A stretch of 64,000 nucleotides of DNA from Candidatus Thorarchaeota archaeon (GTDB lineage Archaea; Asgardarchaeota; Thorarchaeia; Thorarchaeales; Thorarchaeaceae): contig JAIZWL010000009.1 in the NCBI GenBank assembly GCA_021498125.1, forward strand, positions 1-64,000. Direction: 5' to 3'. A model generated the notes under the pieces. That model ran no database searches, was not told where the DNA came from, and worked only from the letters and a program-made list of their open reading frames with translations. A program made the translations under genes and the position numbers. Shown here in pieces: positions 33,766-56,300 of the stretch (within the stretch, counting starts at the first letter, position 1; each line of letters starts with the position of its first letter).

Positions 33766-35262
33766 TTACTGAGATCTCCGTCGTCTGACGTAGAGAAAAG
33801 TCCCGATTGTTGCTACTCCCGCAACAGCTATTGATACCATGATGAGGGGGCCATAGAGAACAAGTGGACTATAGGGCCAATATTTGGTGAGTGCATTTCC
33901 GGCATCTGACCAGCTGTCCGCAATTCCTGTAAGATGTTCCGCGATACTGACAAGCCCCGTACTGTGATTTGCAATGGCGGAGTCAAGATCTCCTGTTGCG
34001 TTATACTCCTTAGCAATAGATGAAAAGGTCTCGTGGACATCACCTACGATGCGTGAGATGTTGCCGACATAGAGAAGTGACGAGTTGTCTGACAACGCCG
34101 CAAAATGTGGGAGTGCGCTCTCGGCTGCTTCATAGAACTCAGAGAAATCATGCCCCGTCAAGTACTTGTGCAGACTAGTCAGTGATACCTTGTACGACAG
34201 ATATTGCAGAGTCACTGACGACTCGATCGCAAGTCCGAGAAACGTCAGAATTGAGGCCTTGTACTGGCGCTCGTTCTGCATGCCGTCAAAGACTGCAAGA
34301 AAACTCTTCAGGCCTTCCGGTGTTACGTCTTTTGCTAATCCGCGGAAGCCCTTCTCACCAAATTGCCATATGTACGCTGAGGCTGCTCCGGGAGCATAGG
34401 ACTCGCCAGCACCAAGAAGTCTATCCCTGATGTACGGCCCCAATTGATCGCTGATAGTAGAAGTGGGTTCTTCACCACCTCGCTTTATCAGAATGCTGAT
34501 GTAATACCTCTTTGACCATGCTAAGTTTAGATTGGTATAGCTGATCTGTGAATAGTTGCCTCTCCCATCATCCGGATACCCGTAGTTATCGCCGAATGAA
34601 CCAACTCCGGGATCTTGGATGTACGCTACACCCGCTGAATCATTGTATCCAACAATGGCGACTGCGTGGCCACCACCTGTCAGACCCTGATCTCTCAGAA
34701 AGTCATAATCTGCTGCTGGAAGCCATGAGGGATCAACTGACACAACTAGTGGATACCCCTCGTCGATTGCAGTTCGCATGAGCGCAAAGGCCTCTTGCTG
34801 GCCATCAATGACTTCAGCAATGATTCCTCGTGAGCGGAAATAGTCCAATTGCTCATCGATCCCTTCAACGCTAGCATCAAAATAGATCGAGTAGTTCAAG
34901 CCATAGAGTCTGGTGACAAAGACCACTGGATCGATCTGTTGATAGAGCGCACCGGGGAACATCAAGAGTGTGTCGTTGTAGCGGATATACGAAAACGAGA
35001 ATCCAATTCCTGATAGCGCAAGAAGATCGTGCAGGGTGACATCAACACCTGCATACTGAAGAGCAATAGCAGTACCTGCCCAGTTACAGAGACCATTTAT
35101 CTCTTGCCAGATATAGGGGACCTGTTGTAGAGTCTTGGCCTTATCTTCTGCTACTACTGAATTGTTAATTAATTTAGTCTGTGATTGGTTAGTCGTTACC
35201 GGAACGATCACGAACATAACAAGAACCATGATTGCTATTGCCTTGTACTTCAAATTTGCCAT
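33766..35262 (-). CDS. Surface C39-like cysteine peptidase
   Basis: This 498-residue protein has a signal-type helix (9-24), a papain-like C39 domain at about 45-245, a helical stalk, and a C-terminal membrane helix (about 470-490) ending RRRRSQ. The likely triad is C59 (GLCNWAGTAIAL), H199 (GGGHAVAIVGYND) and D217 (YIQDPGVG), the order of C39 peptidases. It would cleave proteins or peptides outside the cell, or trim a surface precursor; no target is visible. It converges on the substrate-binding protein gene, only 16 bases away. Confidence 0.85.
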   Translation of the reverse strand: MANLKYKAIAIMVLVMFVIVPVTTNQSQTKLINNSVVAEDKAKTLQQVPYIWQEINGLCNWAGTAIALQYAGVDVTLHDLLALSGIGFSFSYIRYNDTLLMFPGALYQQIDPVVFVTRLYGLNYSIYFDASVEGIDEQLDYFRSRGIIAEVIDGQQEAFALMRTAIDEGYPLVVSVDPSWLPAADYDFLRDQGLTGGGHAVAIVGYNDSAGVAYIQDPGVGSFGDNYGYPDDGRGNYSQISYTNLNLAWSKRYYISILIKRGGEEPTSTISDQLGPYIRDRLLGAGESYAPGAASAYIWQFGEKGFRGLAKDVTPEGLKSFLAVFDGMQNERQYKASILTFLGLAIESSVTLQYLSYKVSLTSLHKYLTGHDFSEFYEAAESALPHFAALSDNSSLLYVGNISRIVGDVHETFSSIAKEYNATGDLDSAIANHSTGLVSIAEHLTGIADSWSDAGNALTKYWPYSPLVLYGPLIMVSIAVAGVATIGTFLYVRRRRSQ

Positions 35263-35576
35263 CCCAATTTGCCCTCTAATTTTGCTATGATAAGACTATC
35301 GACATGGCCAATTCTCTACGCTCCACGTAAATACAAGATCCTATGCGGTCTACGTACTAAGATTGGTTGCGCCTTTTGTTTCTGATGATCTCTCCTTCAT
35401 GACCGTGCGGCATTGATTCCCCTACGTGACTTCTGTCTGTATGAACTTTTTTAGACTAAGCGCCCAGATGAGCAAAACCGTCCGCGACCCTTCAAACAGA
35501 TAACTTTTCTTATTTTTATTTGTTTAGAGGGATATGTTTATCCATTGTTTTTTTATTCTTGCCTTTGGCGAATGAG
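35263..35576. other. Divergent intergenic region
   Basis: This 314-base gap lies between the divergent peptidase and radical SAM genes. Its right end is very T-rich, and TTTTTTTATTC near 35549 lies about 27 bases before the radical SAM ATG, a plausible TATA region. In-frame read-through from a TTG at 35520 is judged an artefact. No RNA gene was recognised. Confidence 0.4.
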
Positions 35577-36659
35577 ATGAACTACCACCTTGTATTGACT
35601 CGTAAATGTAATCTCAACTGCGAGTATTGTCATGGTGGAGAAGAGGCTGGCTCTGTCACGGAGATCCAGTACTCGTTTGAAGAGTTGGACCGATTCCTCG
35701 CAAAGGATGATGACCCTCAGATCATGATGTATGGTGGTGAGCCGACTCTTCGAATTCCCCTCATGATCGAGATTATGGATCGCTATCCACAAGCTCGATA
35801 TATGTTACAGACGAATGCTCTCTTACTGAGTCAGATTCCAGAGGCATATGTAAAACGCTTTCATTCCATTCTTGTGTCCATTGATGGGCGTGAGCATGTC
35901 ACCGACGGATATCGGTCCAAAGGGGTCTACAGGCGTGTTCTTGAGAATGTACGTTGGTTAGAGCGGATCGGTTACACAGGAGATGTTGTGGCACGAATGG
36001 CGGTTTCCCAGCATAGTGATATCTATGAGGAGGTCAGGCACCTTCTTGATCTGAGAGACCCTACCTTCAAACATGTCCACTGGCAACTGAACGTTGTCTG
36101 GGACGCTGAGGGAAATTGGACAGATTTTGATGGTTGGGTGGCAAATAGCTATAACCCTGGGATCTCCCGTCTGGTACGTGAGTGGGTTGACAAAATAGAG
36201 GAGGGCGTGATCGAGGGTATTGTTCCCTTTATGCCTCTGATGTACACGCTCCTTACTGGAAAGACCTCGCTGCTGCGATGCGGTTCTGGAATCGACACCT
36301 TCGCAATTCACATCGATGGTAGTATTGGTGTCTGTCCGATCTCGCCTGATTGGGAATGGTCTATAGTTGGAGACATTCGTGAGACCGATCCGAAAAGCCT
36401 CAGAAATGTAATGCTTGTTGATGAACCATGCCCATCGTGTGAAGTATACGGTATTTGCGGTGGTCGATGTCTGTTCGCGAACAAAGAGCGCCTCTGGGGG
36501 CAGGAGGGATTCGATAAGATCTGCGATACGGTGAAGTATCTCATTAGGGAGCTTCAGAATCAAGTTCCACGAGTCCGTCAATTGGTCGAGAGAGGAATCA
36601 TCTCAGTAGATGACTTTGACTATCCCGAGTTCAACAATGGTTGTGAGATCATACCCTAG
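35577..36659 (+). CDS. Radical SAM enzyme with SPASM-type C-terminus
   Basis: This 360-residue protein has the radical SAM cluster motif CNLNCEYC with cysteines at 11, 15 and 18, then YGGEPTLR and an SAM barrel (ILVSIDGREHVTDGYR). The C-terminal part has extra cysteines (LLRCGSG, IGVCPIS, CPSCEVYGICGGRC and a later DKIC), the pattern for auxiliary clusters of SPASM peptide-modifying or sulfatase-maturing enzymes. A predicted archaeal peptide-modifying subgroup has this form. No precursor peptide is obvious nearby. I use ATG 35577 because the upstream extension is only a hydrophobic T-rich read-through. Confidence 0.9.
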   Translation: MNYHLVLTRKCNLNCEYCHGGEEAGSVTEIQYSFEELDRFLAKDDDPQIMMYGGEPTLRIPLMIEIMDRYPQARYMLQTNALLLSQIPEAYVKRFHSILVSIDGREHVTDGYRSKGVYRRVLENVRWLERIGYTGDVVARMAVSQHSDIYEEVRHLLDLRDPTFKHVHWQLNVVWDAEGNWTDFDGWVANSYNPGISRLVREWVDKIEEGVIEGIVPFMPLMYTLLTGKTSLLRCGSGIDTFAIHIDGSIGVCPISPDWEWSIVGDIRETDPKSLRNVMLVDEPCPSCEVYGICGGRCLFANKERLWGQEGFDKICDTVKYLIRELQNQVPRVRQLVERGIISVDDFDYPEFNNGCEIIP

Positions 36660-37177
36660 AGTGGTTCTTCCTCTTCGATCTCTTCTTCCTCAAGGCTCTT
36701 CTGCATGAGGATGATCTCTTCCCCGTCACGAACAGTCTTTTCGATCTCTTTGTAGCCGATTCGTTCGTAGAAGGTCTTCTGATCATCAATTGCCCCGTAG
36801 ACCTCGATCTCTGCGGTCTTGGCATTTCTATGAGTAAGTAGATTCTCGGCGTATTCGATGAGGATCGTTCCAATACGGCGATTGCGGAATTTCTTGGCAA
36901 CGGCAACACGGCTGATTACGCCAACTTGCCCGTGGAGCATTACCCGCATTGTCCCGACAATCTGATTTCCTATGATTGCAACATAGACATTGCCCATCTG
37001 GATCTGCCGAGCTATCTTGTCAAGGCTCTCTTTCATAGCTCCAGGTTCTCGGGAGAGTTGGGACTTGATGCCTGCATACGCCTCCTTGATGATTGATCGA
37101 ATCTCTTCCACTTCACCAAGCTCAGCCCTACGAATCAATACTTCTGCATAGTTAAAGATTGTCGATACCACCTGCAA
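36656..37177 (-). CDS. GNAT-family N-acetyltransferase
   Basis: The 173-residue protein fits the acetyl-CoA-binding GNAT fold: an N-terminal IRRAELGEVEEIRSIIKEAY, a central VYVAIIGNQIVGTMRV, the acetyl-CoA loop VAVAKKFRNRRIGTILI, and the late FYERIGYKE. The C-terminus is a very acidic tail of Glu residues. The substrate is unknown. The start is uncertain: TTG at 37177 is the longest, and TTG at 37138 fits the usual family start. It overlaps the radical SAM gene tail by four bases, convergently. Confidence 0.85.
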   Translation of the reverse strand: MQVVSTIFNYAEVLIRRAELGEVEEIRSIIKEAYAGIKSQLSREPGAMKESLDKIARQIQMGNVYVAIIGNQIVGTMRVMLHGQVGVISRVAVAKKFRNRRIGTILIEYAENLLTHRNAKTAEIEVYGAIDDQKTFYERIGYKEIEKTVRDGEEIILMQKSLEEEEIEEEEPL

Positions 37178-37668: not shown

Positions 37669-38982
37669 TCATATATCGAAATCAAATAATGAGCTCTGAT
37701 TATCGGCTTCACTTTTCCGAATTAGTTTCTCTAGGGCCACCGCTCCCATTTCATCGCGAAAGAACTCTTTTGTTGCGATATACTCTAAAAGACTGCCTTC
37801 TCGTTCTACTTCGGCTCGTAGAAGATTTAATTCTTCAGTGATACTGAGACCACTTAAAGCGTAACTTGTTTTTTCTGCACTTTGCTTTTTTCGGCTGAAT
37901 GATTCGTTTGATGCATCACGGAGGTGAATGATCCCTTTTCTAATACTGTCGAGTATTCTATTTTGCAATACAATTTGATCAGGCTGTAGATAGTAATACG
38001 ACCGATTTTCAAATATACTACAATCTCTGTTGAATGCCGCAACTCTATAGTCTGCTATATTCGCAAATCCTTTTTTTCGCCAATATTCTTCATCCTCTTC
38101 GAATTTGGTGTCAGGTCGAGGTGGTACAGATATTCCTTTCCAAGGCGGCCCTATAATATCCCCATATGAAAAAGCCCCTAAAAAGTCAGAAGGCCTCTGT
38201 CTAATATCCATTGAAGATTTTCTTGGTGTTTTTCGAATATTTGCGAGATATATTACAACGTTCTTTGATTTATCTTCGAAATGATTGTTGATTCCTCTCC
38301 ACATTCCTCTCATCTTAGCAATCATTGTATTGCTGAATCCTCGGCCTTGAAAATCTATCCAAATATTGGTATACCCTCGACTTGCATAATACGAGAGGAT
38401 TGTATCACGAGTATTTGCATCATATCCAATATCAAACGGTGCAAAAATGGGTTTTGTATTTCTCTCCTGCAAAATGGATGCTGATACATCTACATACTTG
38501 CAAAATTCTATAGGACTGTATTTAATTTTTGTTTTTCCAACGCCATATCTCACATGTGGAATAAATACGACCGACGAGTATGCATGCATGTAATCTAGCA
38601 AATCTGTAAATCTCTTTCCAAGTTTCCTTGTCGGAAAGTCCGAAAATGATATTGAGATTGAAGTATTTGTTCGACTTAATTCCTCATTTATTTTCAATGC
38701 TTTTTTAATACGTTCCTCTTCTCCAGCCAATAGCATTGATGCGAGTGCATCATAGGTTCTCTTCTGGTATATTATTCTGTTTAATCCATAAATAGCGTTG
38801 CGAGTGTTCACACTCAAAATTTTCTTTCTCAAACTCGGGGAAATGAACGTACTGAGATAGATTGCCCTTGTTGGGGTCCATATTTGAGTTCTTCCCAAAT
38901 TTATTTTCTTAATAGAAAAACCCGGAATATCTTCGCATGAGATGATCTCCTCTATTGATGTATGTAGTTCTATCCGTGACAT
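37669..38982 (-). CDS. Unknown protein in AT-rich cassette, C-terminal PIP-like motif
   Basis: I do not recognise this 437-residue soluble, basic protein. Its centre has a barrel-like rhythm of strands and helices: VVFIPHVRYGVGK, KPIFAPFDIGYDA, YTNIWIDFQGRGFS, NVVIYLANIRKTP and DFLGAFSYGDIIG. That recalls TIM-barrel nucleotide-modifying enzymes but proves nothing. The C-terminus holds QSSLFDF, which matches the PCNA-interacting (PIP) pattern QxxLxxF, in the usual terminal place. It overlaps the PIN-like gene by 13 bases and is the last gene of a three-gene operon. GAGG sits about seven bases before the ATG. Composition differs from neighbours. Confidence 0.75.
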   Translation of the reverse strand: MSRIELHTSIEEIISCEDIPGFSIKKINLGRTQIWTPTRAIYLSTFISPSLRKKILSVNTRNAIYGLNRIIYQKRTYDALASMLLAGEEERIKKALKINEELSRTNTSISISFSDFPTRKLGKRFTDLLDYMHAYSSVVFIPHVRYGVGKTKIKYSPIEFCKYVDVSASILQERNTKPIFAPFDIGYDANTRDTILSYYASRGYTNIWIDFQGRGFSNTMIAKMRGMWRGINNHFEDKSKNVVIYLANIRKTPRKSSMDIRQRPSDFLGAFSYGDIIGPPWKGISVPPRPDTKFEEDEEYWRKKGFANIADYRVAAFNRDCSIFENRSYYYLQPDQIVLQNRILDSIRKGIIHLRDASNESFSRKKQSAEKTSYALSGLSITEELNLLRAEVEREGSLLEYIATKEFFRDEMGAVALEKLIRKSEADNQSSLFDFDI

Positions 38983-39548
38983 CCATAAACCTCTTTGAAA
39001 ATATGTTCAATAATTTGTATATTGTTCAGTGTTAAATTGAACGGTCTTCCTCCATTTCGTATTGCCTGTTTTACTTTTTCTAGAATTGCTATGGTTGTTT
39101 CGAATGGGAGTATTTTTTCACAGCAACAGTTGGCTAGATACCTTAGACTGAACTTTACGAATGGCTGTAGCTCGGGGATATTGTTCTCGATGAATTTTCG
39201 TGCCGGTTTATCATCGATAATAATAGAGTGAAGCTGTAATTTTCTGTAAATGAAGTATGCTATGGCCATAGTTTCGTATTCGCCTTTTTTAAAAATTTTG
39301 TCACCTATAATACTTAATAATGCAGAGTAATCATATTTGTTTAATATGTTTACAAGATTGCGAAACCTAATTGTTTCTAATGCGTCATTATGTTTTTCTG
39401 AAATCTCTTTTTCTACTGTTTTACCTATATAAAAATGAAATTTTTCTAGGATTTCCGCAAGGATCTTTGTATCGTTGATTTCGTTTTCAGATAAAAATGC
39501 AATAAAAAATGAGCTATCACTTACTATGGAATTGTTTGAACCCAACAA
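38970..39548 (-). CDS. PIN-like nuclease domain protein
   Basis: The 192-residue protein has a PIN-domain outline: an N-terminal acidic strand IVSDSSFFIAFLSE, a mid-protein conserved acidic KGEYETMAIAYFI, and HSIIIDDKPARKFI, which is typical of VapC-type ribonucleases. Three to four acidic residues (D11, E107 and the DD pair near 130) are in the expected positions. PIN proteins often act as toxins that cut RNA, or as RNA-processing enzymes. The start is TTG with a GAGGGAGTGA site that overlaps the stop of the upstream gene. It lies between the other two cassette genes. Confidence 0.75.
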   Translation of the reverse strand: MLGSNNSIVSDSSFFIAFLSENEINDTKILAEILEKFHFYIGKTVEKEISEKHNDALETIRFRNLVNILNKYDYSALLSIIGDKIFKKGEYETMAIAYFIYRKLQLHSIIIDDKPARKFIENNIPELQPFVKFSLRYLANCCCEKILPFETTIAILEKVKQAIRNGGRPFNLTLNNIQIIEHIFKEVYGCHG

Positions 39549-39549
39549 A

Positions 39550-40179
39550 TCACTCCCTCTGATTTGCCCGTCTGAGTAATGCAGTTTTTTTCTCAGCAGG
39601 AATTATCTTTTTCTCTATTAACCTATCAACTATCTTTTCAGCTCTTTTTAGAATGCTCTTTGATAATTCGGATTTTTCTGAGTAGACTTTATTGGTTTCA
39701 TCTGTGTACAGTAGGAATAAGAGTTCGTCCCACTCAAGATTAGTATATAATGGCACCATTAGATCAATTGCACCTAATATTGCAAAAGCATCGTCATTTT
39801 CTTTTGCACTTTCCATCATTTTATGAAGTAGTATTTTATATTTTTCCATCCCCTTGTTGGTTAACTCAATGTATCCGCCTTTTGCTCTTTCGGCCTCGGA
39901 GCGATTTTTTGGAGGTAGGTATATCCAAATGTCAGTCAAATAAGTAGGATTTTTTACAATCTCTTCAAGGTCAAATGAATACGGCCCCTTAAGGTGGGCT
40001 TCGAAAGTCACAAATTCACTTATCTTCGGATGGAATTTCCATAAGAAAAAGAAAATTTTCTGCAAATGTAGATGCGAGATTTTACCTTTTGCTTTGCCCA
40101 GTATTAATAATATTAGATATTCCGCATCTCTAATAATATCCTTTTCATGACGATCTATATTTTTCTGCACTTTCCTCAC
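39550..40179 (-). CDS. Panacea-like (DUF4065-like) protein, possible antitoxin
   Basis: This 209-residue protein is the first gene of the AT-rich operon. The segment HLHLQKIFFFLWKFHPK, followed by FEAHLKGPYSFDLEEIVKN, resembles the Panacea/SocA-like domain, where LQKLxYF and GPxx motifs occur at this spacing. Such domains neutralise diverse toxins, so an antitoxin role for the downstream PIN-like protein is plausible (inference). It may alternatively be a DNA-binding or protease-adaptor protein. It is lysine rich, unlike flanking genes. Its gene ends just before the PIN-like gene and its GTG start has no clear ribosome site. Confidence 0.65.
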   Translation of the reverse strand: MRKVQKNIDRHEKDIIRDAEYLILLILGKAKGKISHLHLQKIFFFLWKFHPKISEFVTFEAHLKGPYSFDLEEIVKNPTYLTDIWIYLPPKNRSEAERAKGGYIELTNKGMEKYKILLHKMMESAKENDDAFAILGAIDLMVPLYTNLEWDELLFLLYTDETNKVYSEKSELSKSILKRAEKIVDRLIEKKIIPAEKKTALLRRANQRE

Positions 40180-40501: not shown

Positions 40502-42589
40502 TTATTTAGGAAATAGATCCAGTGTAAGCGTTCTGCCGCAGTGGTCACAATCAACCGCAGTATGAGCGCGCAGACGCAAGACCTGTGTATCTGTCAACTC
40601 ACCCCCACAATACACGCATCGCCACAAGCGTACCATATCCGTGATCTCCTCGATCGTGATGGGGAGCATTGCGGTATCATCGCCGTGTGTCGTCACCTTG
40701 ACAGTTGACTGATTACCGTCCTTATGTCCGGTGATCACTATCACTATTGCGACTCTCTTTCCCGTGTATTTTCCATCGGCGAACCCTTGGACTGTTCCGA
40801 TAAATTGATCGCCTACTATCTCTTGATGCCGACCGATCACATAGAAGTTTCTGAGTTGTAGGATTTGGTCGGTTCGCTCAAACAAGATCTGGGCATTCCA
40901 GTCCGTCTTGAACTCATTGTCGATGTGAGTCATCTCTTGAAGTGCCTTGTCAAATTCATTAGGTGCTGTGTTCAATGGTTTGAGCAGGTCACAGACTGAA
41001 CGGATGATATACGGTGCAACGGGAAATGTGTGTACATGATCTGTAGAATCGATCAGTGACACGCTTGCAACGATCTTCCCTTCAACGCAGTCTTTCGTCG
41101 GGGCAAATGTGAAGAGTGGAGATCGAAATCCCCCCACCTCTATTCGCTTTATGATCTTGACCGATTCGCTCGTAAGGCTGAGCGTGTCCGAGGGATAACT
41201 GACTATTGTGACCACAATATTGGTGACCACTAATTTCGAATTGTTTACGATTTTGACCTTGTAGTGGAACTCGCCTCCCTCAATCTCGCATCCTCGTAGG
41301 ACTGATACACCATCAGTAATGTGCGGGTCACCACTGTCTTCGATCTCTTCGCCTGTCTTTGGTTGCTTAGTCCGGGTCTCAGTATCGATAAAGTCCCCCT
41401 GCTTGTGTTCGGACTTTGAGACCTTGGAGTGCGAATAAAGATCCAATGTGAGAGATGCACCGCAATAGCGACAAGTGTAGACACTGCCTGTCTGGATGGT
41501 CATGATCTGTTCTGGGTTCAGAGGTGCACCACAGTTGAGGCAGATCCATGAGTCTATCTTTTCAATAATCTCATCAATGGTACTGGGCAACATTGCCTCA
41601 TCGTCACCACTGACACTCACCTTCACGCGGGTCTCATCGTTTCCTGCTTTCCCTGTCAGAGTGATTGTGACGCCCACACGTTTTCCCGTGTACTTGCCCA
41701 GCGCCATTCCTGTGATGGTCCCGATTACTTGATCATCAACCGTTTCGCTGTGGACATTGACCAAGTAGAAGTTGATTGCGGGTAATATCGTCCGTGCCTT
41801 GCGGAGAAGTACATCAGCTGGCCAATAGAGTACCATCTCCGACTTTGATCTGACCAGGTTCCTGAATACAGACTCGAACTTGTCCTGTGTTGTCTGCACT
41901 GGTTGAAGCAGGTCACAGACCGAACGAATGACATAGGGTCGTGCTCGTAGAATCCGGAGCCTATCTGTTTGATCAATATAGTTTACCACACAAACCAATT
42001 TACCTTCAACACAGTCCTTCGATGGCCCGAACTCAAACCTGACAGTTGTAAAATCGCCACCGTTGATTCGTGGGATCGTCTGGGAGATCTCACTGGTCAA
42101 CTGCATACAATCTCTAGGATAGGCCACCATTGTTGTAACCACGTTCGTGACAACAAAATTGCTCCGGTTCTTTATTGTTAGTACATAGATAAACCGGCCA
42201 CCTGTGATTATACAGGTGCCGCTTACAAAGAGATTATGCGGCGTGCCTCTTCGTATAATCCTCGCCTCTGCGATCTTGAGCTTACGTGCGCGTAACCACG
42301 CGGCCTGACTTTCTCTTGCACGTTCGTCATCCAGTGACCAGACCTGCTTCTCAATCTGTTTCAGTTCGGGATATTCTTCCACCATCTTTTCCAGATGCTT
42401 GACTAACGTCTTAGCTTTATAGCTCTCCTGAAATATGGCTGCGATTGCCTCGTCCGCATCGCCACCTTCAGTAGCAATCATTTTGAGCTGGATTATGTGA
42501 TCCTGGGCACGGTGTAAGAACTTGCTAAACTTTTCACGGAGTGTTTGATCCATATTTACTGATTCAAGAACTGTCTGAATTTGCTCCAT
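40502..42589 (-). CDS. Two-unit appendage-like zinc-ribbon protein
   Basis: This 695-residue protein has a helical N-terminus (1-110), then two copies of a three-part unit. The first unit is a beta-sandwich (about 115-225), an alpha/beta part (235-345) and a zinc ribbon with C350, C353, C373 and C376. The second is about 430-535, 545-650 and C658, C661, C681, C684. Shared signatures are KDCVEGK, PYVIRSVCDLLxP, GxADGKYTGKRV and GDDxAMLPxTIxEI. Sandwich plus alpha/beta platform resembles the gamma-COP and adaptin appendage layout of vesicle coats, which I infer from pattern only. The gene follows its single-unit paralogue by one base, with GAGGGAGTGAG before the ATG. Confidence 0.75.
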   Translation of the reverse strand: MEQIQTVLESVNMDQTLREKFSKFLHRAQDHIIQLKMIATEGGDADEAIAAIFQESYKAKTLVKHLEKMVEEYPELKQIEKQVWSLDDERARESQAAWLRARKLKIAEARIIRRGTPHNLFVSGTCIITGGRFIYVLTIKNRSNFVVTNVVTTMVAYPRDCMQLTSEISQTIPRINGGDFTTVRFEFGPSKDCVEGKLVCVVNYIDQTDRLRILRARPYVIRSVCDLLQPVQTTQDKFESVFRNLVRSKSEMVLYWPADVLLRKARTILPAINFYLVNVHSETVDDQVIGTITGMALGKYTGKRVGVTITLTGKAGNDETRVKVSVSGDDEAMLPSTIDEIIEKIDSWICLNCGAPLNPEQIMTIQTGSVYTCRYCGASLTLDLYSHSKVSKSEHKQGDFIDTETRTKQPKTGEEIEDSGDPHITDGVSVLRGCEIEGGEFHYKVKIVNNSKLVVTNIVVTIVSYPSDTLSLTSESVKIIKRIEVGGFRSPLFTFAPTKDCVEGKIVASVSLIDSTDHVHTFPVAPYIIRSVCDLLKPLNTAPNEFDKALQEMTHIDNEFKTDWNAQILFERTDQILQLRNFYVIGRHQEIVGDQFIGTVQGFADGKYTGKRVAIVIVITGHKDGNQSTVKVTTHGDDTAMLPITIEEITDMVRLWRCVYCGGELTDTQVLRLRAHTAVDCDHCGRTLTLDLFPK

Positions 42590-42590
42590 C

Positions 42591-44093
42591 TCACTCCCTC
42601 ACATATTGGTCGCGTTTTAGAACTGTACCACAATATGGGCACGCGACCGCGACTCCTGTCTTGAGTAATACTACATCATCAGCGTCTAGCGGATGGCCAC
42701 ATGCAATGCAGCTCCACGTAGTGATCCCCTCGGACAACTCCTCGATGGTCGTTGGAAGCATGGCAATATCGTCGCCCATCGCCTCCACCGTGACCAGGCA
42801 CTCATTCTTGTCAACGGTGCCAGCTATTGTGATCACTGCTACTACTCGTTTCTTGGTGTACTTTCCCTCAGCGAATCCTCGAATGACCCCCACAAACTGA
42901 CCACCTGCATCACGAGTGGTCTCATCTACGATGTGAAAATTATTTGCAGCGAGTAATTGCCGTGTCTTCGTAAAGGCGAATTCGGCATTCCATGGGACTG
43001 TGGTCTCACGCTGGTCTGAGACCATGTCGCTCAAGATTGTGTCCAGTTGTTGAGTGACCATCTCTTTCGGTCTCAATAGGTCACAGACTGATCGAATCAC
43101 ATATTCGCGGACTGGTAAGACATGCACCTTGTCTGTCGCATCATTGAACGACACACTTGCCACGATCTTCCCCAGTACACAGTCTTTTGTCGGAATAAAT
43201 ACGAAACTAGGAGACCGGAAACCGCCGACCTCAATTCGTGATATCCTCTTGATTTTTGGGCCTACCAGTTCAAGGCAATCATCAGGGTATGCTACGATTG
43301 TGACAATGATCTCTGTAATGACGAACGGCGATGAATTCTTTATTTTTACTTTGTATTCAAAGGACCCACCGATCACTTCACAGCCCCTGAATATCTCGAT
43401 CTTCTCTACTGCTTCCTGTAAATCTTCAGCCGTCACGCCAGCAGATTGTGCTGGTGTGGTTCTCGAAATTTCCCATCCGCGTTTCCTCATTGCATTTCTT
43501 GCTAATCTCATGGCATTGCTGAACTGTCTAGTGAGTGCAGTCAATCTTCCTTTGTGCTGAAATGATCCATGTTTGACCAAGAGATCCATGGCTTCGGACT
43601 CAGCAGTAGCAAACTCTTGTTCAAATTCTGCAAGTCTTTTCTTTCCATCGCTCAGATCGATGGATTCCTGTTTGCTGAATTGTTTGACCGATTCAATTAT
43701 CGCGATCATAATGTCGAAGAGTTCGCTAATACGTTTGTTGAACTTCTCCAGCTCGATAATGCTCTGGTCCTTTTTGCTGGCCATTAGGGTTCGTGCACGC
43801 AACCATGCTGCACGGCGTTCTACATTGAAAGTTGCTCTGAGTAGAGAGATGCGGTTTCTATAATCGCTGTCGTCCGAATGGCTCTGCAAGAGATGTTCAA
43901 TGATTCCGAATATTTTATTTATACTATTATTGACCCGGAAGACTACAGAGATTGCGTCCCATGGATCCTCGTCGCTCCCTTCTTTGGCAATTTCCTTTAG
44001 ATGTTGGATCTCTGCTTCTACAGTCCGCAGTAATTCCTCAATCTTGTCGCCGGCCAGACTATCGCCTTGTTCAATCTCAATATTGGTACTCAC
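42591..44093 (-). CDS. Single-unit appendage-like zinc-ribbon protein
   Basis: This 500-residue protein is a paralogue of the next gene. A long helical or coiled-coil region (1-220) precedes a single unit: beta-sandwich (about 228-345), alpha/beta part (350-450) and zinc ribbon with C462, C465, C485 and C488. Motifs are KDCVLGK, REYVIRSVCDLLRP, GFAEGKYTKKRV and GDDIAMLPTTIEEL. AGGTGAGG precedes the GTG start. It is the first gene of a two-gene operon, possibly with the small frame at 44127-44327 upstream. No catalytic motif is seen, so a scaffold or binding role is more likely than an enzyme. Confidence 0.75.
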   Translation of the reverse strand: MSTNIEIEQGDSLAGDKIEELLRTVEAEIQHLKEIAKEGSDEDPWDAISVVFRVNNSINKIFGIIEHLLQSHSDDSDYRNRISLLRATFNVERRAAWLRARTLMASKKDQSIIELEKFNKRISELFDIMIAIIESVKQFSKQESIDLSDGKKRLAEFEQEFATAESEAMDLLVKHGSFQHKGRLTALTRQFSNAMRLARNAMRKRGWEISRTTPAQSAGVTAEDLQEAVEKIEIFRGCEVIGGSFEYKVKIKNSSPFVITEIIVTIVAYPDDCLELVGPKIKRISRIEVGGFRSPSFVFIPTKDCVLGKIVASVSFNDATDKVHVLPVREYVIRSVCDLLRPKEMVTQQLDTILSDMVSDQRETTVPWNAEFAFTKTRQLLAANNFHIVDETTRDAGGQFVGVIRGFAEGKYTKKRVVAVITIAGTVDKNECLVTVEAMGDDIAMLPTTIEELSEGITTWSCIACGHPLDADDVVLLKTGVAVACPYCGTVLKRDQYVRE

Positions 44094-46003: not shown

Positions 46004-47404
46004 TTACTCTTTGTCTTCGTCTTTCTCTCCGAGACGCTTTGCTTTACCAAGGCGACGACTACTATCTACAGAGAGGCGTCGTGTGTCACGAGTTGAGAGA
46101 TCATGTCCCTGTTTCCCTTCTGGAATTCCTTCCGCACGCTCACTTGGCCAGCTCTCTCCAGGTTCTGGAACGCGCTCGGCGATCTCTTCATCTACTTCTC
46201 CGGGAGCAAAGGTTTCTCCCTCTTCACGCGCGTGTGAGACAATCCGCTCGACGCGTTCGACTTTCAAGTAGTATAGCATCGTGATCATTGCCACAATCGG
46301 GAACGCAAGAAGTTTGGCGATGTCGCGGAAGATGTAGGTCGCATATGTGGTTGTTCCCGACCAGTCAAAGATGTACCAGCTTCCTAGAATCGAGGTCGGA
46401 GCACTGGCGGTCACTGCAATTATACTGTCTACATAGAAGAATCCGCTGGCGAGGAAGAAGGTCAATAATGGCCCAAAGTCCCTAAGGCGAGCACGGGATT
46501 CTTCGACGACCTCTGTGACCGTTCGTCCAATCCCACTCATCGCATAGATAAGGAAGAAGAGAGACATCCCGATATCTACAGGTGTCATCTGTGGGGCACC
46601 AGTCCTTCTCATGACATTAACAAGGAAGTAACCCGCATAGACCGCAACGAAGACGGTCAGAAGTGCGATATTGAGCGCAGCACCCTTCTTTGCGTATCTG
46701 AAAAATGTGAACAGTGCCACCATTGCAAACAAGCCAAGCATTCCCATTGCTGCCACGAGGAATGGCCATTGGATCGTGATATTGGTCATAAATTCGCTGA
46801 AGACTGACCCAATGATCGCATCAATGCCGAACAAATTGTTTGGGATGATGACCAAGGCAAGGAGGATCTCGGCTCCGATTATGCCTATACCAATGAGCAA
46901 AACGATGAAGCTACCAATTCCAATCGCAAGACCTCCCTTTTTGGGCTCCGCAATTGTTGCAAGTCGTAGACTTGTTCGTGAGGACAGGTATGCTTGAAAT
47001 GCGATCCAGCCAACCCAACAGAACATGGAGAATGCAAGTAATCCAATCTCTCCGATTGCGATGGAGAGAAAGACCGAGATTGCGAATGAGACCGCTAGCC
47101 ATGCAAGGCCTTTGAATTCGGTAACATGACCCCGCCCGCGTCGAGTGATCCAGAGTCGATCCATCTTTAATCCGGTGAGAAGCGTTCCAATACCAAAGTA
47201 GATCGTACCAGTCGCTCCCACATACACGAACGTTCCGACAAGAAACTGTTCAACCGTCGTACCTACAAAAAGCGTGATCAACCATGATACAAATAGTGCC
47301 AGAAACGTCGTTGCTACGAAAATTATCAGATATGCAACATATCGTCGCGTCTTGAAGAACACTTTGAGTCCATTTATTATTCCAGAGAGAATCGGGATTC
47401 CCAA
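46004..47404 (-). CDS. Polytopic membrane protein, unknown function
   Basis: This 466-residue protein has about ten hydrophobic segments and a cytoplasmic hydrophilic tail of about 80 residues (from about 388) with many Glu, Arg and Lys residues, ending EKDEDKE. No transporter signature that I know is present. The TTG start is firmly supported by GGGAGGT seven bases upstream. It is probably a single-gene unit that ends at the bidirectional hairpin. Confidence 0.8.
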   Translation of the reverse strand: MGIPILSGIINGLKVFFKTRRYVAYLIIFVATTFLALFVSWLITLFVGTTVEQFLVGTFVYVGATGTIYFGIGTLLTGLKMDRLWITRRGRGHVTEFKGLAWLAVSFAISVFLSIAIGEIGLLAFSMFCWVGWIAFQAYLSSRTSLRLATIAEPKKGGLAIGIGSFIVLLIGIGIIGAEILLALVIIPNNLFGIDAIIGSVFSEFMTNITIQWPFLVAAMGMLGLFAMVALFTFFRYAKKGAALNIALLTVFVAVYAGYFLVNVMRRTGAPQMTPVDIGMSLFFLIYAMSGIGRTVTEVVEESRARLRDFGPLLTFFLASGFFYVDSIIAVTASAPTSILGSWYIFDWSGTTTYATYIFRDIAKLLAFPIVAMITMLYYLKVERVERIVSHAREEGETFAPGEVDEEIAERVPEPGESWPSERAEGIPEGKQGHDLSTRDTRRLSVDSSRRLGKAKRLGEKDEDKE

Positions 47405-47901: not shown

Positions 47902-48036
47902 AGTGTGGTTGAGTCTTTACGATAGAAGCACCCGGCGCCAAACTGAGGGTGGAGATAGGAAAGCAAAGATCTGAGTTTTTGTTATGGTCCTGTCAACGGG
48001 TGGTCAGTTATCGTTATGTTCAACGAGGAAAAAGGT

Positions 48037-51000
48037 ATGTATAGAAGCTACAGCAAGGGAACTTTGCTTTTCCTGTTGATGATTTTGCCATCTCTCATGG
48101 TCGTGCCACTTATTGCTGCTCCGCAAACCACTAGACTCGCGGCAAGTCCTCCACCTGAGGTTGTTCAGGTGGCTGGAGCACGATTGTCAACGTATACAGA
48201 GCATGTTCCTATTATTATTAAATCCACGCAGGACTTTATATCTCAGGGATGGCCTGGGTCTGGAACCGAACTTGATCCGTTTCTCATCTTAGGATTGAAT
48301 ATCTCTTATGATGTGGGTCTTGTCATTATTAACATCACGAACACTGATGCATACTTCAAGATCGTGGACTGTGTGGCCAATCAATTGACCTCGGGGATTG
48401 CAACAATTCTCTTCGAGAATGTTTCGCATGCCACTATTGAGTATTCAACAGTCACGGGTCAAAAAACAGGGATTGAACTTGTAAATGCAACAAACACAGC
48501 TATTAGTCATGTTGATGTTACTGTGACTGGTTTTGCCAATGCGGCATACATTACAGACGCGGATCATGTTTCTGTGTCGAATTGTATCTTCAACTCGACG
48601 TTTTATCATCTCACGATAGTGGGGTCTAACTTTTTGAGTATCCGCGATACATCCTTTGTTGGTACAGCCCTTTGGTTCTCTTTATATATTTCTAATTCAA
48701 ATCACACAACAATTTCTGGGTTAGACGTTGTCACGGCCTTTTATTTTGCATGGGTTGTGGACAGTTTCGGATTTAGTGTTGATGGTTCAACTGGGACCGA
48801 TTTGACTGACGGGTTTATGTTTGACAATGTGCATGATATTCGCATTATTGATACATCTATATCCGCTGTTGATTATGGTGTTCAGGTGTCTTCTAGTGTT
48901 GTCAATATGACGATTGACGGTTGCCAGATCACTACGTCTTCAGATCGTGCAATAACCATGAACTCTGGTAATCTTACGCGGATTATCAATAATCATATTT
49001 ATTCTTCGCATGATGGTATCTATATTAGTACAGCTCGTGACTTGGAATTATCCGGCAATGTAATTGAAGATATTGTCAACTCAAATGCAGTTACTATTAG
49101 TGGCTGCACGAACCTGATCATTCGTGATAATACAATCCGTTCTATTTCATCTGGACACGGAATTGCATTGAACAAAATAGCCAACATTTCTATAACCGGA
49201 AATACACTCTATGATGTGTCTAACTATGCAATCAGTGGTACGTACCTCAATGATACCCTGATCGCTTCTAACACGATTTCAGCAACGTTGCGTGCTGTAT
49301 ATGCTCAAAATGACAACAGGTTGCTGATCACTTCTAACACTTTTTCAGAATCGGACTATGCAGGATATATCGCCTTTTCCGATGATGTAAATGTGAGTTA
49401 TAACACCGCAACTGACCTTGATGATTCAGGATTTTACTTTTCAGGAATAGATACCAACTTGGTCATTGTGGGAAATGAGATTGTGGACGCCAATAACTAT
49501 GGGATCCACATTGTTGGTAGCTCGCATTCATTGGTTGAACGAAATATGGTGATGCAAGCATTTACCTGCATCAATCTAGGAACCTCACCAAATAGCACCG
49601 TACAGTCGAATGTTGTACAAGACTTCAGATCCAGTGGTCTTTCAATCTCTACCTCTGGAGATAGTGAGATCCTGAACAACACGGCTATCGCAAGTCGTAT
49701 CGCTACCGTTGGGATTTTGGTTACTGGAGCTCAAAGTGGCTATACGTTCTCTGGAAATCAGATGTATGCGTGTGGCTTCAAAATCTTACGTTCAGGGATC
49801 ACCCCAAGTCCTAATGTCTATACTATGAACAATAATACTATTGGTGGCCTTCCCGTCTATTATGGACTGAATAAGAACGGAATAAGTATCGATGGTTCTC
49901 AATATGGTCAAGTTATTCTTGTTAATTCCACCAACGTCTTAGTCCAAAACGGTAGTTTTGTCAGGAGTACCATTGGTATCAGTTTACTGTTTAGTAACTT
50001 TACCACAATTGATGGGGTTCATGTCGTTGAGCCACGTTATGGAGTTGAGTTACAGTATTCTCATAATGTGACCATAAAGAACTCAAGTTTTCTTGGCGGT
50101 AGTGCAGGTCGCGGAGTGTACTTGGAACGTTCTTCGAATCTCACAATTATGAATAGTGAGTTCACTAAATTTACCGGGTCTCCAGCAATCGACCTTAATC
50201 AGGCGAGCGTCTTTTTGATCACGAATGTGTCAATCTCTGACTCTTATGATGGTCTGACCTTGAATGACATCCTCAATCTGACATTGTTATATTCGACATT
50301 CGAAAATATTGCTCATTATGGAATGTATGCCTCTGGTAATTCTGATTTTGCACAAATCTATTCTTGTACATTCATTAATGCCAGCTTTTCGATTCGGATT
50401 ATTGACCAGACGAGTGACTGGGTCATTGACTCTTCGACATTCTTGTATTCGCCTACTGCCGCAATTAAAACAGGTTCACCCCATAGTGATTACATCAACA
50501 TTACGAATTGCTATTTCGAAGGCAATGATTATGGTATCTATAGCCAGTATGCTGACTATTGGAGGATCACTGGAAACACCTTCCGATGGAATATCCAAAT
50601 GGGTATCTACTTGTCTGCTATGACCAGTCCTATTATCTATTCCAACACCTTTGTTGGTAACAAAAATGCCAACGGCTATGATACGGCCAGTCACTTCTGG
50701 GACGATGGTGTGGATACTGGAAATGCATGGGACGACTATTCGGGTTCTGGTTCTTATCCCGTTTCCGGTGGTGGTGGTGCTACGGATCGCTATCCTACAA
50801 AGTATCTTCCCACTTCACCTATTGTCAGCACTCCACTGGACGTGTCCTATGCAGAGGGGACAGAGCATTACTTTTTGACATGGAACGCCTATGATGACTA
50901 TCTTGTCAGTTGGAATGTCACTTGTGATGGTGCCCTCTTTGCAGCAGACGCATGGAACTATGACGATGTAACTCTTGACATCGGTGGTCTTGCGTATGGC

Positions 51001-51768
51001 GATTACACGTTCGTGATCACCCTTCGTGATAATGATGCGAATACGGTCCAAGACACTGTGCTTGTTTATGTCTATGATGGGACTGCACCTCAGATTGAAG
51101 GACCCTTTACAATGATCGCGTTCGTGGGCGCTTCTGGTCAGGTACTTGCTTGGAACGTTAGTGATCTGCATCCTGCCAATTATTCGCTCTACGTGGATGA
51201 TACGTTGACCGTGGAGGATGACTGGACCACGGGGACCATCACCTATGACGTGAGTGGTCTTGCAGTCGGCGATCACGAGGTCCGGCTTGTAGTCCGTGAT
51301 ATCAGTCGCAATGAGACCTCGAATACTGTGTTGGTGCGGATGATCCAAGACGTCACAAGTCCATCGGTTGACTCACCCGCGGACTTGACCATCTACTATG
51401 GCTCGATTGGCAATACTGTCGTCTGGACCCCAACCGACCTCTATCCTGAGAGCTACACGGTGACGCTCAATGGAACCGCTGTTGCCTCCGGTGATTGGTC
51501 CGGCGCAAAGATTGTCATTAATGTGGATGGCCTTGACCTAGGTGTGCACCAGTTCACTCTGACAGTCTATGACGCGTCAGGGAACAGTGCATCTGATGAG
51601 GTCGCAGTCACCGTCGTCTCCTCGCCTTGGGCCCCAGCATCAACGACCACCGTCACTCCATCTGCGCCCATTGATCCATTATTGATAGGTCTGGTCGTGG
51701 CTGGCGTGGCAGGTGCCATTATCATTGTTGTCGTATTGTACATGCTCAAGAAGCGACGAGCTGCGTAG
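48037..51768 (+). CDS. Surface beta-helix (NosD-like) protein A with Ig-like repeats
   Basis: The mature protein of about 1243 residues begins with a signal-type segment, then GWPGSGTELDPFLI and INITNT motifs of the NosD/parallel beta-helix family. Many 20-25-residue beta-helix repeats (N-x-I and G-I-x-L patterns) run to about residue 900. Three Ig-like repeats follow, each with a D-LYP or D-LHP turn and a GN-like end; then a Thr/Pro linker, one membrane helix and KKRRAA. It would be a large cell-surface stalk or carbohydrate-binding or -degrading protein. I start at ATG 48037, eight bases after GAGG; ATG 48016 is possible. Its paralogue is at 53365. Confidence 0.88.
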   Translation: MYRSYSKGTLLFLLMILPSLMVVPLIAAPQTTRLAASPPPEVVQVAGARLSTYTEHVPIIIKSTQDFISQGWPGSGTELDPFLILGLNISYDVGLVIINITNTDAYFKIVDCVANQLTSGIATILFENVSHATIEYSTVTGQKTGIELVNATNTAISHVDVTVTGFANAAYITDADHVSVSNCIFNSTFYHLTIVGSNFLSIRDTSFVGTALWFSLYISNSNHTTISGLDVVTAFYFAWVVDSFGFSVDGSTGTDLTDGFMFDNVHDIRIIDTSISAVDYGVQVSSSVVNMTIDGCQITTSSDRAITMNSGNLTRIINNHIYSSHDGIYISTARDLELSGNVIEDIVNSNAVTISGCTNLIIRDNTIRSISSGHGIALNKIANISITGNTLYDVSNYAISGTYLNDTLIASNTISATLRAVYAQNDNRLLITSNTFSESDYAGYIAFSDDVNVSYNTATDLDDSGFYFSGIDTNLVIVGNEIVDANNYGIHIVGSSHSLVERNMVMQAFTCINLGTSPNSTVQSNVVQDFRSSGLSISTSGDSEILNNTAIASRIATVGILVTGAQSGYTFSGNQMYACGFKILRSGITPSPNVYTMNNNTIGGLPVYYGLNKNGISIDGSQYGQVILVNSTNVLVQNGSFVRSTIGISLLFSNFTTIDGVHVVEPRYGVELQYSHNVTIKNSSFLGGSAGRGVYLERSSNLTIMNSEFTKFTGSPAIDLNQASVFLITNVSISDSYDGLTLNDILNLTLLYSTFENIAHYGMYASGNSDFAQIYSCTFINASFSIRIIDQTSDWVIDSSTFLYSPTAAIKTGSPHSDYINITNCYFEGNDYGIYSQYADYWRITGNTFRWNIQMGIYLSAMTSPIIYSNTFVGNKNANGYDTASHFWDDGVDTGNAWDDYSGSGSYPVSGGGGATDRYPTKYLPTSPIVSTPLDVSYAEGTEHYFLTWNAYDDYLVSWNVTCDGALFAADAWNYDDVTLDIGGLAYGDYTFVITLRDNDANTVQDTVLVYVYDGTAPQIEGPFTMIAFVGASGQVLAWNVSDLHPANYSLYVDDTLTVEDDWTTGTITYDVSGLAVGDHEVRLVVRDISRNETSNTVLVRMIQDVTSPSVDSPADLTIYYGSIGNTVVWTPTDLYPESYTVTLNGTAVASGDWSGAKIVINVDGLDLGVHQFTLTVYDASGNSASDEVAVTVVSSPWAPASTTTVTPSAPIDPLLIGLVVAGVAGAIIIVVVLYMLKKRRAA

Positions 51769-53053: not shown

Positions 53054-53364
53054 TCTGGACGTTGTTTCGATCTACTCGGATGTTTAAGTTGTATTCATCG
53101 GTGTTCATCAGGCCTTAGGAATGCAGGAATGATTTGGGACCTATGTGCTGTCCCCACAAGCAAGAAGTATGAATCCACTTTGACATCGCTCCACCATTAA
53201 TATCACATTTCAGAAAACCAGAGTTTATTAACAAATGTGGCAATTAGCGAATGATGCATCCGCCACCAGTTTGTGGGAATTGAAAGGTGATAAAGGCCAC
53301 TTGTTTATGAAGTTGGTCTACCGTTGAAGGTGGATGCCTGGAAGTTAAAACAGAGGTGAATCAT
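53054..53364. other. Intergenic region with shared element, copy 2
   Basis: This 311-base gap follows the longin-tailed gene. It contains the second copy of the 23-base element at 53214-53236. The rest is without further repeats or recognised RNA. The start region of the next gene has GAGGTG at 53353-53358. Confidence 0.5.
53214..53236 (+). promoter_or_regulatory. 23-base element shared by two surface genes, copy 2
   Basis: This copy matches 47879-47901 base for base, and precedes the start of the second beta-helix gene by a similar distance. The surrounding sequences do not align well, so the element itself appears to be conserved. Confidence 0.7.
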
Positions 53365-56300
53365 GTGCAACAAAGATCTATTTTAGGACTGGCACTTGTT
53401 CTCGTGATGATTCTTCCGGCTTTTGTTGTGATGCCATTGGTCAATACTCGTAGTAACATGATATCTACTGAGAATATTGTCCATGGTGGAGTTCAGACCG
53501 CAGGAGCAAGATTATCAGGATATACAAACCATGTGCCAATTATTATTAGCAAGGCTCAGGATTTCATAACCCAAGGATGGCCCGGTTCAGGTACAGAACT
53601 AGATCCGTTCCTAATCTCAGGATTGAACATTACTTATGATGTGAATCTGGTGTCGATAAATATTACAAACACCGATGCTCATTTCAAGATTGTAGACTGT
53701 GTGATAAACCAGCTTTCGAGTTCATTTTATGCAATTTATCTTGCCAATGTTTCCCATGCATCGATTGAATACACGACCCTAGCTTCAAAGGGGGATGGGA
53801 TTTTCCTTTCCAATGCAACATCGACTAGAGTGATGAATACAGACTTGACTATAAATTCGTCTGGTTTTAATGCTGTCCGCATAATCTCATCTGATGATGT
53901 CGTAGTTCAAGATTGTGTTATCACTGCATCAAGTGGTCGTGCGGTTTATTTGACTGACTCGAATAACCTCTTAGTCAAAGATATTTCATTTGAGGGGTCG
54001 TTATCTTACTATGGAATATTTCTCTATAATTCCAATTCCACTTCCATAATGGGTTTTATTGCGGATACGACATTCACCATTGCCTATGCTTCATATGTTC
54101 GTGATTTCTCTATTACTGGCTCTGGCGGCACTAATCTTAACTACGGGGTTCGGCTGGATAATGCCCAAAATGTGACCATTTCCAACACGAATATTACTAG
54201 CAGTAGCTATGGTATCTATGTATTGGGGGGTGTGGTTTCAGATATTACTATTAAGGGTTGTCGTATCTCCTCGTCAAATAATTATGGAATTTATAGTGTT
54301 GTAAGTACAAATAATACCCAAATATTGAACAACAGGATCTTCTCATCACTGCATGGGATCATGCTTCAGTCTTCATTTGGTGTTTCGATAATCGGCAATA
54401 CCATTGAGGACATTAGTAAAGGGAAAGTGATGGTCCTATCTAACTCTCAAGATTTGGTATTGACAGACAATACAATCTCGCAAGTCAGTCTTGGTGAAGC
54501 AATCTACTTGTTTCATGTTGTCAATGCTACTGTTTCGAGAAACGCAATCTCACATGTTGCCACCTATGCAATATATGCAGATACAGTCAACGAAACAACG
54601 GTCATGGATAACACCATAACTGATGTAGACACTGGAATTTACTGTGACACCACGTACCAGTGGGACATTATTTCTAATACCGTTGAGTTAGCCACTAGCA
54701 CAGGCATATACGTCAGTAGTTCTGGTGATTTTAATGTGAGCTACAATACAGTATCTAACGTTGACAGTGAAGGAATCTACACGGATACTCTTACAGGTGA
54801 TCTCTTTGTTGTTGGCAATGATGTTTCGCAAACCGGGGATGCTGGCATCTATGTTTCAGACATTTCAAAACCCCTTGTAGAAAATAATACATTGAATCAG
54901 GTGTATGAGGGTATCTATGTATCCGCAGCTCCCAATTGTACAGTCCGTTTCAACCAGATCTGGGATGCAACCTATGCTGGAATCAATACTTGGATGATCT
55001 ATGACGGAAAGATATTGAACAACACCATTGGTGCTGGTCCTAAAATTGGCATCTATCTGATGTACGCTAATAATGCGACCATCTTTGGCAATACAATGAC
55101 AGAGTGTGGAATTTATTTTCCATTCGGCCACTCCTTGGCTTTCTATGTCTTGGACCTGTCTTATAACACAGTGAACGGGCTGCCTGTCTATTATGCCCTA
55201 AATCATAATGGGTTGACTATTGATGGGAACTCCTATGGTCAGATCTTTATTGTCAACTCAACGAACATTCTTGTTCAAAATGGTTCCTTCATAAATCCGA
55301 CAGTTGCTTTTCAAGCCCTTTACAGTGACTTTATCACGATTGATAAGATCCATGTTGAGTCCATTTATTTTGGCATTGGATTTGGGCACTGTAATAACTT
55401 GACCCTCACAAATCTGTATCTCAAAGGCAGTTCTGGGCGAATCGGAATTGAGTTATACACTACGATCAATGTGACAATCACCGAGGCTGCGCTTTATGAT
55501 TGGAGTCACACAACAGATGGTAATGGGATTTACGCATATTATGGTGAGGTGTTTACCCTGACCAATTTGACAATAGTTGGATCCTACTATGGTATCTATG
55601 CCTCGAATACTGATAATGTGACCCTTACAAATACGATAGTGAAGGATACTATATCTCGTGGTATTTATGCTGTCAGTTCAGAGTACTGGGAGGTCCATGA
55701 GAGTGAATTTTTGACGTCTCTCTATGGTATCTACCTCTACCTAGGTTCGACTCATTGGATCATCGACAACTCAAAATTCCTCTACAGTGGTTATGATGGG
55801 ATACGAAGCACATCTTCAACTGGTGATTATAATAACGTGACCAATTGTCTGTTTGAAGGTAATCGTGATGGTGCCTATATCTCCTCTGGAGATTACTGGG
55901 CATTCATTGGAAATACCTTCAGGTGGAACACGAGGTATGGACTGCATGTAACTGGAATGGCTGGTCCCGTTATCTATTCAAACACGTTCGTAGGTAACAT
56001 GGACGAGAATGGATATGATACTGGTACTCATTACTGGGACAATGGTGTTGACACTGGAAATGCATGGGATGATTATTCGGGTTCTGGTGCATATGATGTT
56101 CCTGGTGGTGGCGGTACTCAGGATCGCTATCCATCAAAGTATCTTCCTACATTCCCCATTGTAAGTATGCTTCCGGATGTATCTTATGCAGAGGGAACAG
56201 AACATTACCTCCTGACTTGGTACGCATATGATGACTATCTTGTCAGCTGGAATGTCACCAGAGATGGTCTTCTTTACGATCAGGGTGCATGGAACTTCCA

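Follow-up and report, generated by a model that had tools for sequence, protein, structure and literature searches.

An appendage-type module predicted in two zinc-ribbon proteins of a Thorarchaeon and their relatives in an unnamed Asgard superfamily

Two adjacent genes of a Candidatus Thorarchaeota archaeon encode zinc-ribbon proteins that carry one and two copies, respectively, of a unit strongly predicted to adopt the appendage-type fold of vesicle-coat subunits, and this unit is a member of an unnamed superfamily of Asgard archaea. We propose that both products are probably soluble cytosolic adaptor hubs, in which a helical bundle presents one or two appendage-type modules, capped by zinc ribbons, that bind motifs or domains of partners and link membrane proteins to cytosolic machinery; a role for the two proteins in vesicle budding or sorting is only a possibility. 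The origin of vesicle coats is an open question of eukaryogenesis, and coat homologues in Asgard archaea have so far mostly been reported as scattered domains.

Two neighboring genes encode three copies of one unit

In the window (the whole stretch of 64,000 nucleotides analyzed here), both genes lie on the minus strand, the gene of the 500-aa protein at 42591..44093 with a GTG start and that of the 695-aa protein at 40502..42589, starting 1 bp after its neighbor, an arrangement that reads like an operon. The 500-aa protein opens with a region of six long predicted helices, modeled at lower confidence than the unit as two three-helix bundles (residues ~8-103, 43785..44072, pLDDT mostly 63-80; and residues ~109-203, 43485..43769, at a low pLDDT of ~55-72). 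Its single unit, located by profile match at 42615-43403 (residues ~231-497), divides into a predicted Ig-like beta-sandwich (residues ~232-342, 43068..43400) and a predicted alpha/beta platform of the order H-E-H-E-E-E-E-H (residues ~347-458, 42720..43055), both delimited by model and fold search, and a CxxC...CxxC zinc ribbon evident from the sequence (Cys 462, 465, 485, and 488; 42630..42710). The 695-aa protein begins with a helical domain (residues ~1-105, 42275..42589) that bears a distant likeness to the first three-helix bundle of the 500-aa protein and that is conserved, by profile search, among the homologues with tandem units in other Thorarchaeia (E down to 2e-14); two units of sandwich, platform, and ribbon follow at 41447..42232 (residues ~118-382, profile E = 1.2e-104) and 40523..41311 (residues ~426-690, profile E = 8.3e-114).

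These N-terminal helical regions were absent from the first-pass annotation of the two proteins, which had described one unit with well-conserved motifs, present once in the shorter and twice in the longer protein. That count is borne out for a unit of ~265 aa by profile E-values of 1e-104 to 8e-114 and by pairwise identities among the three window units of 40-48% over the whole unit (sandwich 47-64%, platform 37-41%), which, judged from the sequences, is far above chance. All four ribbon cysteines are conserved in 58/58 of the relatives that reach the ribbon. A simple hydropathy test found no signal peptide or transmembrane (TM) stretch in either protein, Pfam models found no HEAT repeats, no beta-propeller was found in either, and curated models returned little beyond weak zinc-ribbon matches. 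The N-terminal three-helix bundles were also considered as GGA GAT domains, an idea that was dropped when no match for the bundles was among those listed by the fold search with the full-length model.

Coat appendages are the best structural matches

Two AF2 models were built, one of the unit of the 500-aa protein from a 69-sequence alignment, the other covering the 500-aa protein in full and drawing on a second alignment that overlaps with the first. The first model (mean pLDDT 89.8, pTM 0.67) places strands at 8-118, then a helix, a strand, a helix, four strands, and a helix ahead of the ribbon, in agreement with the order of sandwich, alpha/beta part, and ribbon proposed earlier from the sequence. 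In a Foldseek search against 350,542 PDB chains, ranks 1-13 for this model were all appendages of AP2 alpha/beta2, beta-COP, and gamma-COP (E = 5e-11 to 1e-7; 0 non-coat chains among the 13), aligned over ~235 columns and thus covering both sandwich and platform. The second model brought the same 13 chains to the top (E = 4e-10 to 5e-7), the match after these being weaker by over two orders of magnitude; below rank 13, the matches of the first model covered mainly the sandwich (translocon TRAP subunits) or were BBSome subunits.

The best TM-scores were those to beta-COP (0.64/0.71), and the AP2 appendages reached at best ~0.5 at 5-6 A rmsd, so that the angle between the subdomains differs from theirs. 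Sequence identity to the appendage chains is 7-15%, which is no objection to an appendage fold because the appendages are themselves only 12-16% identical to one another (PMC2262067). Both models thus set an Ig-like sandwich directly before an alpha/beta platform and find their best matches in appendages over both subdomains, and the earlier suggestion that this order recalls the appendage of gamma-COP and adaptins, which was to be checked by structure prediction and structural search, is upheld at the level of the predicted fold. A viral structure library contained no comparable structural relative of the unit, and viral collections no encoded relative.

Sequence tests against coat families

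Sequence comparison gave no recognition of this kind. Pfam ear and platform models did not recognize the window units, and none of PF02883, PF09066, and PF02296, searched against Asgard genomes, gave a match above cut-off (PF09066 also without any control match); PF09066 and PF02296 detected none of the units. Across these three models and the COP platform models the only matches were weak ones of relatives below cut-off, one of them reaching 2.4e-4 with the adaptin ear model. Profile-profile alignment to single gamma-COP and beta-COP sequences was not significant, and a PDB sequence search yielded chance or ribbon matches only with the unit profiles, and HEAT-repeat proteins (mostly designs) plus chance matches with a profile of HEAT-fused relatives. 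A PF02296 match in one genome (G019, locus L118) was set aside as chance, the protein being read as methylmalonyl-CoA mutase. The platform helix, whose correspondence to that of coat appendages is inferred from secondary structure, has F in 67/69 sequences, followed by L or I at +4 in 66/69, i.e., FxxxL rather than the ligand motif FxxxW, which is itself variable in eukaryotes (FxxxF in yeast gamma-COP; PMC2262067). Taken alone, the sandwich matches DUF11 weakly in 11/54 units and NPCBM_assoc in 6/54, in both cases better than the coat models.

Because the unit combines an FxxxL motif and a TM-score of ~0.5 to AP2 with a sandwich that scores as DUF11/NPCBM, and because neither Pfam models nor sequence profiles link it significantly to coats, convergence is a live rival: a DUF11/NPCBM-like archaeal Ig domain and a TBP-like alpha/beta domain would have come together independently and would only look like an appendage, with a general binding function. 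We consider this rather unlikely, given that both subdomains align jointly and in the same order to the same 13 appendage chains, and that other folds match mainly the sandwich and with weaker scores. The DUF11/NPCBM Ig-like domain is moreover a sandwich without a platform, and a platform is present in the aligned units.

The unit is widespread in Asgard archaea

A scan of 84,980 species (GTDB r220) found close relatives at 73 loci, all in labeled Asgard lineages except two labeled only 'archaeon', and none outside the archaea; the worry of the first-pass annotation that the motifs might be common in bacteria was not borne out in that scan. With a broad alignment (A5), the unit is present in 109/180 Asgard genomes. 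It occurs in 36/38 listed genomes of the window's own family (Thorarchaeia), in almost every listed genome of family f2, which is probably Lokiarchaeia, and in several other families, but not in every family. The genome of the window encodes seven proteins with eight units in total, namely the two described here, three with a DUF2341-type ectodomain and a TM helix, one polytopic, and one single-TM protein. At each of four loci (L081, L083, L084, and L087), two or more genes encode unit proteins with an N-terminal TM, which suggests local gene amplification.

Fusions in relatives point to membranes, ESCRT, and coat-like parts

The relatives derive from metagenome assemblies, in which the main fusions recur across several genomes and single fusions may be artefacts. 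Their architectures comprise soluble zinc-ribbon arrays with the unit, chains of signal peptide, ectodomain, TM helix, and unit, multi-TM proteins with the unit, and tandem units; further fusions are to TPR, TIR, and LRR domains. In receptor-type relatives the unit stands behind the ectodomain and TM helix, which places it on the cytosolic side. One single chain (L197:1312-3678) unites surface Ig repeats, a TM helix, a TIR domain, and the unit, and is possibly a receptor or defence protein.

A conserved ~790-aa protein in families f2, f26, and f27 (L176-L186, L133) combines a zinc finger, UFL1/DDRGK-like winged helices (6/6), PCI (6/6), the unit, and a VPS28-like tail (4/6); its C-terminal part also matches NCBIfam Sel_Asgard (NF045535, 7e-11). 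A Njordarchaeum protein (L099:4789-7236) contains the unit together with winged helices and an EAP30/Vps36-like domain (EAP30 E = 1.6e-9). The UFL1/DDRGK/PCI-like winged-helix arrays of six homologues, and the zinc-ribbon arrays of many soluble ones, would suit a unit serving ubiquitin/UFM1-like conjugation or nucleic-acid scaffolds, with ribbons and winged helices in a ligase or transcription role. That reading is improbable in our view, as the unit forms the cytosolic tail of membrane receptors in many homologues and several HEAT forms have no ribbon.

Seven f2 proteins (L174, L202-L207) join a beta-propeller, the unit, and a zinc ribbon, with matches to BBS2_Mid in 7/7, BBS7 in 5/7, and PTHB1_N (BBS9) in 3/7 that are weak and below cut-off in the member shown. 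The propeller-before-platform order of a BBSome core subunit (propeller before GAE-platform) is seen in these seven and in L063, and not in the window proteins.

HEAT repeats are joined to the unit, without a ribbon, at 13 loci of the Thorarchaeal family (L119-L131), and in three of family f13. The profile of these HEAT fusions aligns with that of the window unit family at E = 3.5e-45, and they therefore carry the same module as the window proteins. Among 14 aligned sequences, HEAT_2 is found in 10, Coatomer_b_Cpla weakly in 4 (best 0.0066), and Adaptin_N weakly in 2. AP and COPI large subunits are built of a long HEAT trunk, a linker, and an appendage; the trunk of the fusions is ~100-150 aa rather than ~600. 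In Thorarchaeia the gene lies in a block of GTPase, HEAT-unit protein, WD40 protein, GTPase, and usually Roadblock, with the Ras-family, WD40, and Roadblock matches confirmed. This block is only suggestive because it is part of a longer synteny with unrelated genes, and in the window's genome (L209, C1:492000-502500) it is intact with the HEAT-unit gene absent between GTPase and WD40; we accordingly rejected the adjacency as proof of partnership. The HEAT-unit protein (L119-L131) evolves faster than its neighbors.

These relatives bear on whether the unit and the coat appendages of eukaryotes are truly homologous, the unit then being part of an Asgard vesicle-coat or sorting system and the window proteins soluble accessory members of that system. 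The shared two-subdomain fold of the models, the chains that combine a HEAT solenoid, a linker, and the unit, the two Ras-family GTPases encoded beside them with WD40 propeller and Roadblock, the ESCRT fusions, the BBSome-like propeller forms, and the single adaptin ear match all argue for it. We nevertheless hold it as a doubtful, if serious, possibility, in view of the short HEAT trunk, the unrelated genes around the block, its retention without the HEAT protein in the window's genome, and sequence links to coat families that all lie under curated cut-offs. Of the trafficking link suggested by the first-pass annotation, the predicted appendage fold stands, whereas a trafficking role and common descent do not follow, with similarity below every threshold, no FxxxW motif, and helical bundles and ribbons in place of an adaptin trunk. 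The link is stronger in the relatives with HEAT, UFL1/VPS28, and EAP30 fusions than in the window proteins.

Neighboring surface proteins and the adaptor reading

At the syntenic locus of Thorarchaeon bin27 (L073), the place of the window unit genes is taken by the gene of a surface receptor whose unit lies on the cytosolic side of a TM helix; Peptidase C39-like, radical SAM, GNAT, and polytopic membrane genes at 33766-37177 and 46004-47404 are syntenic with that locus. Near the unit genes lie two genes of 1250-aa NosD/beta-helix surface proteins (48016-51768 and 53356-57108), both carrying a TM at the C-terminus and a KKRRA tail, and ectodomains related to theirs are joined to the unit in L033. 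Three genes downstream of the unit genes (37669-40179; 437, 192, and 209 aa), with no convincing Pfam match, are possibly a mobile insertion.

We favor the adaptor-hub reading of the window proteins, as the best 13 PDB matches of both models, over ~235 columns, are appendages and relatives join the unit to HEAT (10/14), UFL1/DDRGK/PCI (6/6), VPS28 (4/6), EAP30, propellers, and TPRs. Their cytosolic location is suggested by the lack of a signal peptide or TM stretch, together with the cytosolic position of the unit in receptor relatives. The N-terminal helical bundle probably serves oligomerization or docking; the modules, each a rigid Ig sandwich and platform, most probably recognize short motifs or domains in partner proteins, as coat appendages do; the ribbon may add surface to the module, and two units would make the 695-aa protein bivalent. 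Partners may include membrane proteins such as beta-helix surface receptors, which would thus be tied to cytosolic machinery; this receptor link is suggested by the receptor at the L073 locus and by the fusion of the NosD family to the unit in L033. The missing sequence-level match to appendage families, FxxxL, the TM-score to AP2, the DUF11/NPCBM_assoc-like sandwich, and the lower-confidence helical N-terminus count against the adaptor reading.

Comparison with known systems

More speculatively, and with clear reservation, Asgard archaea may hold an ancestral stock of coat appendages, a superfamily homologous to AP, COPI, and BBSome ears, in which the HEAT-unit protein beside two Ras-type GTPases, WD40, and Roadblock would represent a coat or sorting module of minimal adaptin-like type, from which the window proteins would have branched off as soluble zinc-ribbon forms binding surface receptors. 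One appendage-type module recurs, in many copies, across the majority of the Asgard genomes searched and is found in chains that also contain HEAT, propeller, ESCRT, UFL1-like, or receptor parts; the unit proteins are concrete candidates for testing structure, partners, and membrane location. No published description of this unit family was found in open-access text; preprints and subscription papers lay outside that scope, and earlier structure-based work may exist.

The beta-COP appendage of COPI (PDB 9qpq chain H) gives the best TM with the unit (0.64/0.71, E = 3e-10), in an alignment that takes in the sandwich and the platform after it, and its Pfam platform model is weakly matched by the HEAT-fused relatives; however, identity is 12%, the unit has no FxxxW, and in the window proteins helical bundles take the place of a HEAT trunk and a zinc ribbon is added. 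The AP2 alpha- and beta2-adaptin appendages (1w80, 1e42) give the best E-value (5.4e-11) and a full-length alignment, but differ in subdomain angle, with a TM of ~0.5 and no Pfam match. The gamma-COP appendage (1r4x, 5a1u chain E) is among the top 13 matches (E ~1e-7), although its TM is 0.39-0.46 on the query and profile alignment was not significant. BBS9 and BBS1 of the BBSome have a propeller-GAE-platform order, and BBS9 matches the unit structurally at 2.5e-5; the window proteins, in contrast, have no propeller, and the propeller relatives carry a zinc ribbon and match the propeller models weakly. Eme et al. 2023 (PMC10307638) reported adaptin-type domains in Asgard archaea, including appendage Pfam domains, that are sparse and not fused to each other, whereas the units described here occur in 109/180 genomes, include HEAT-unit fusions, and are missed by PF09066 and PF02296: sequence-based lists can miss appendage-like proteins.
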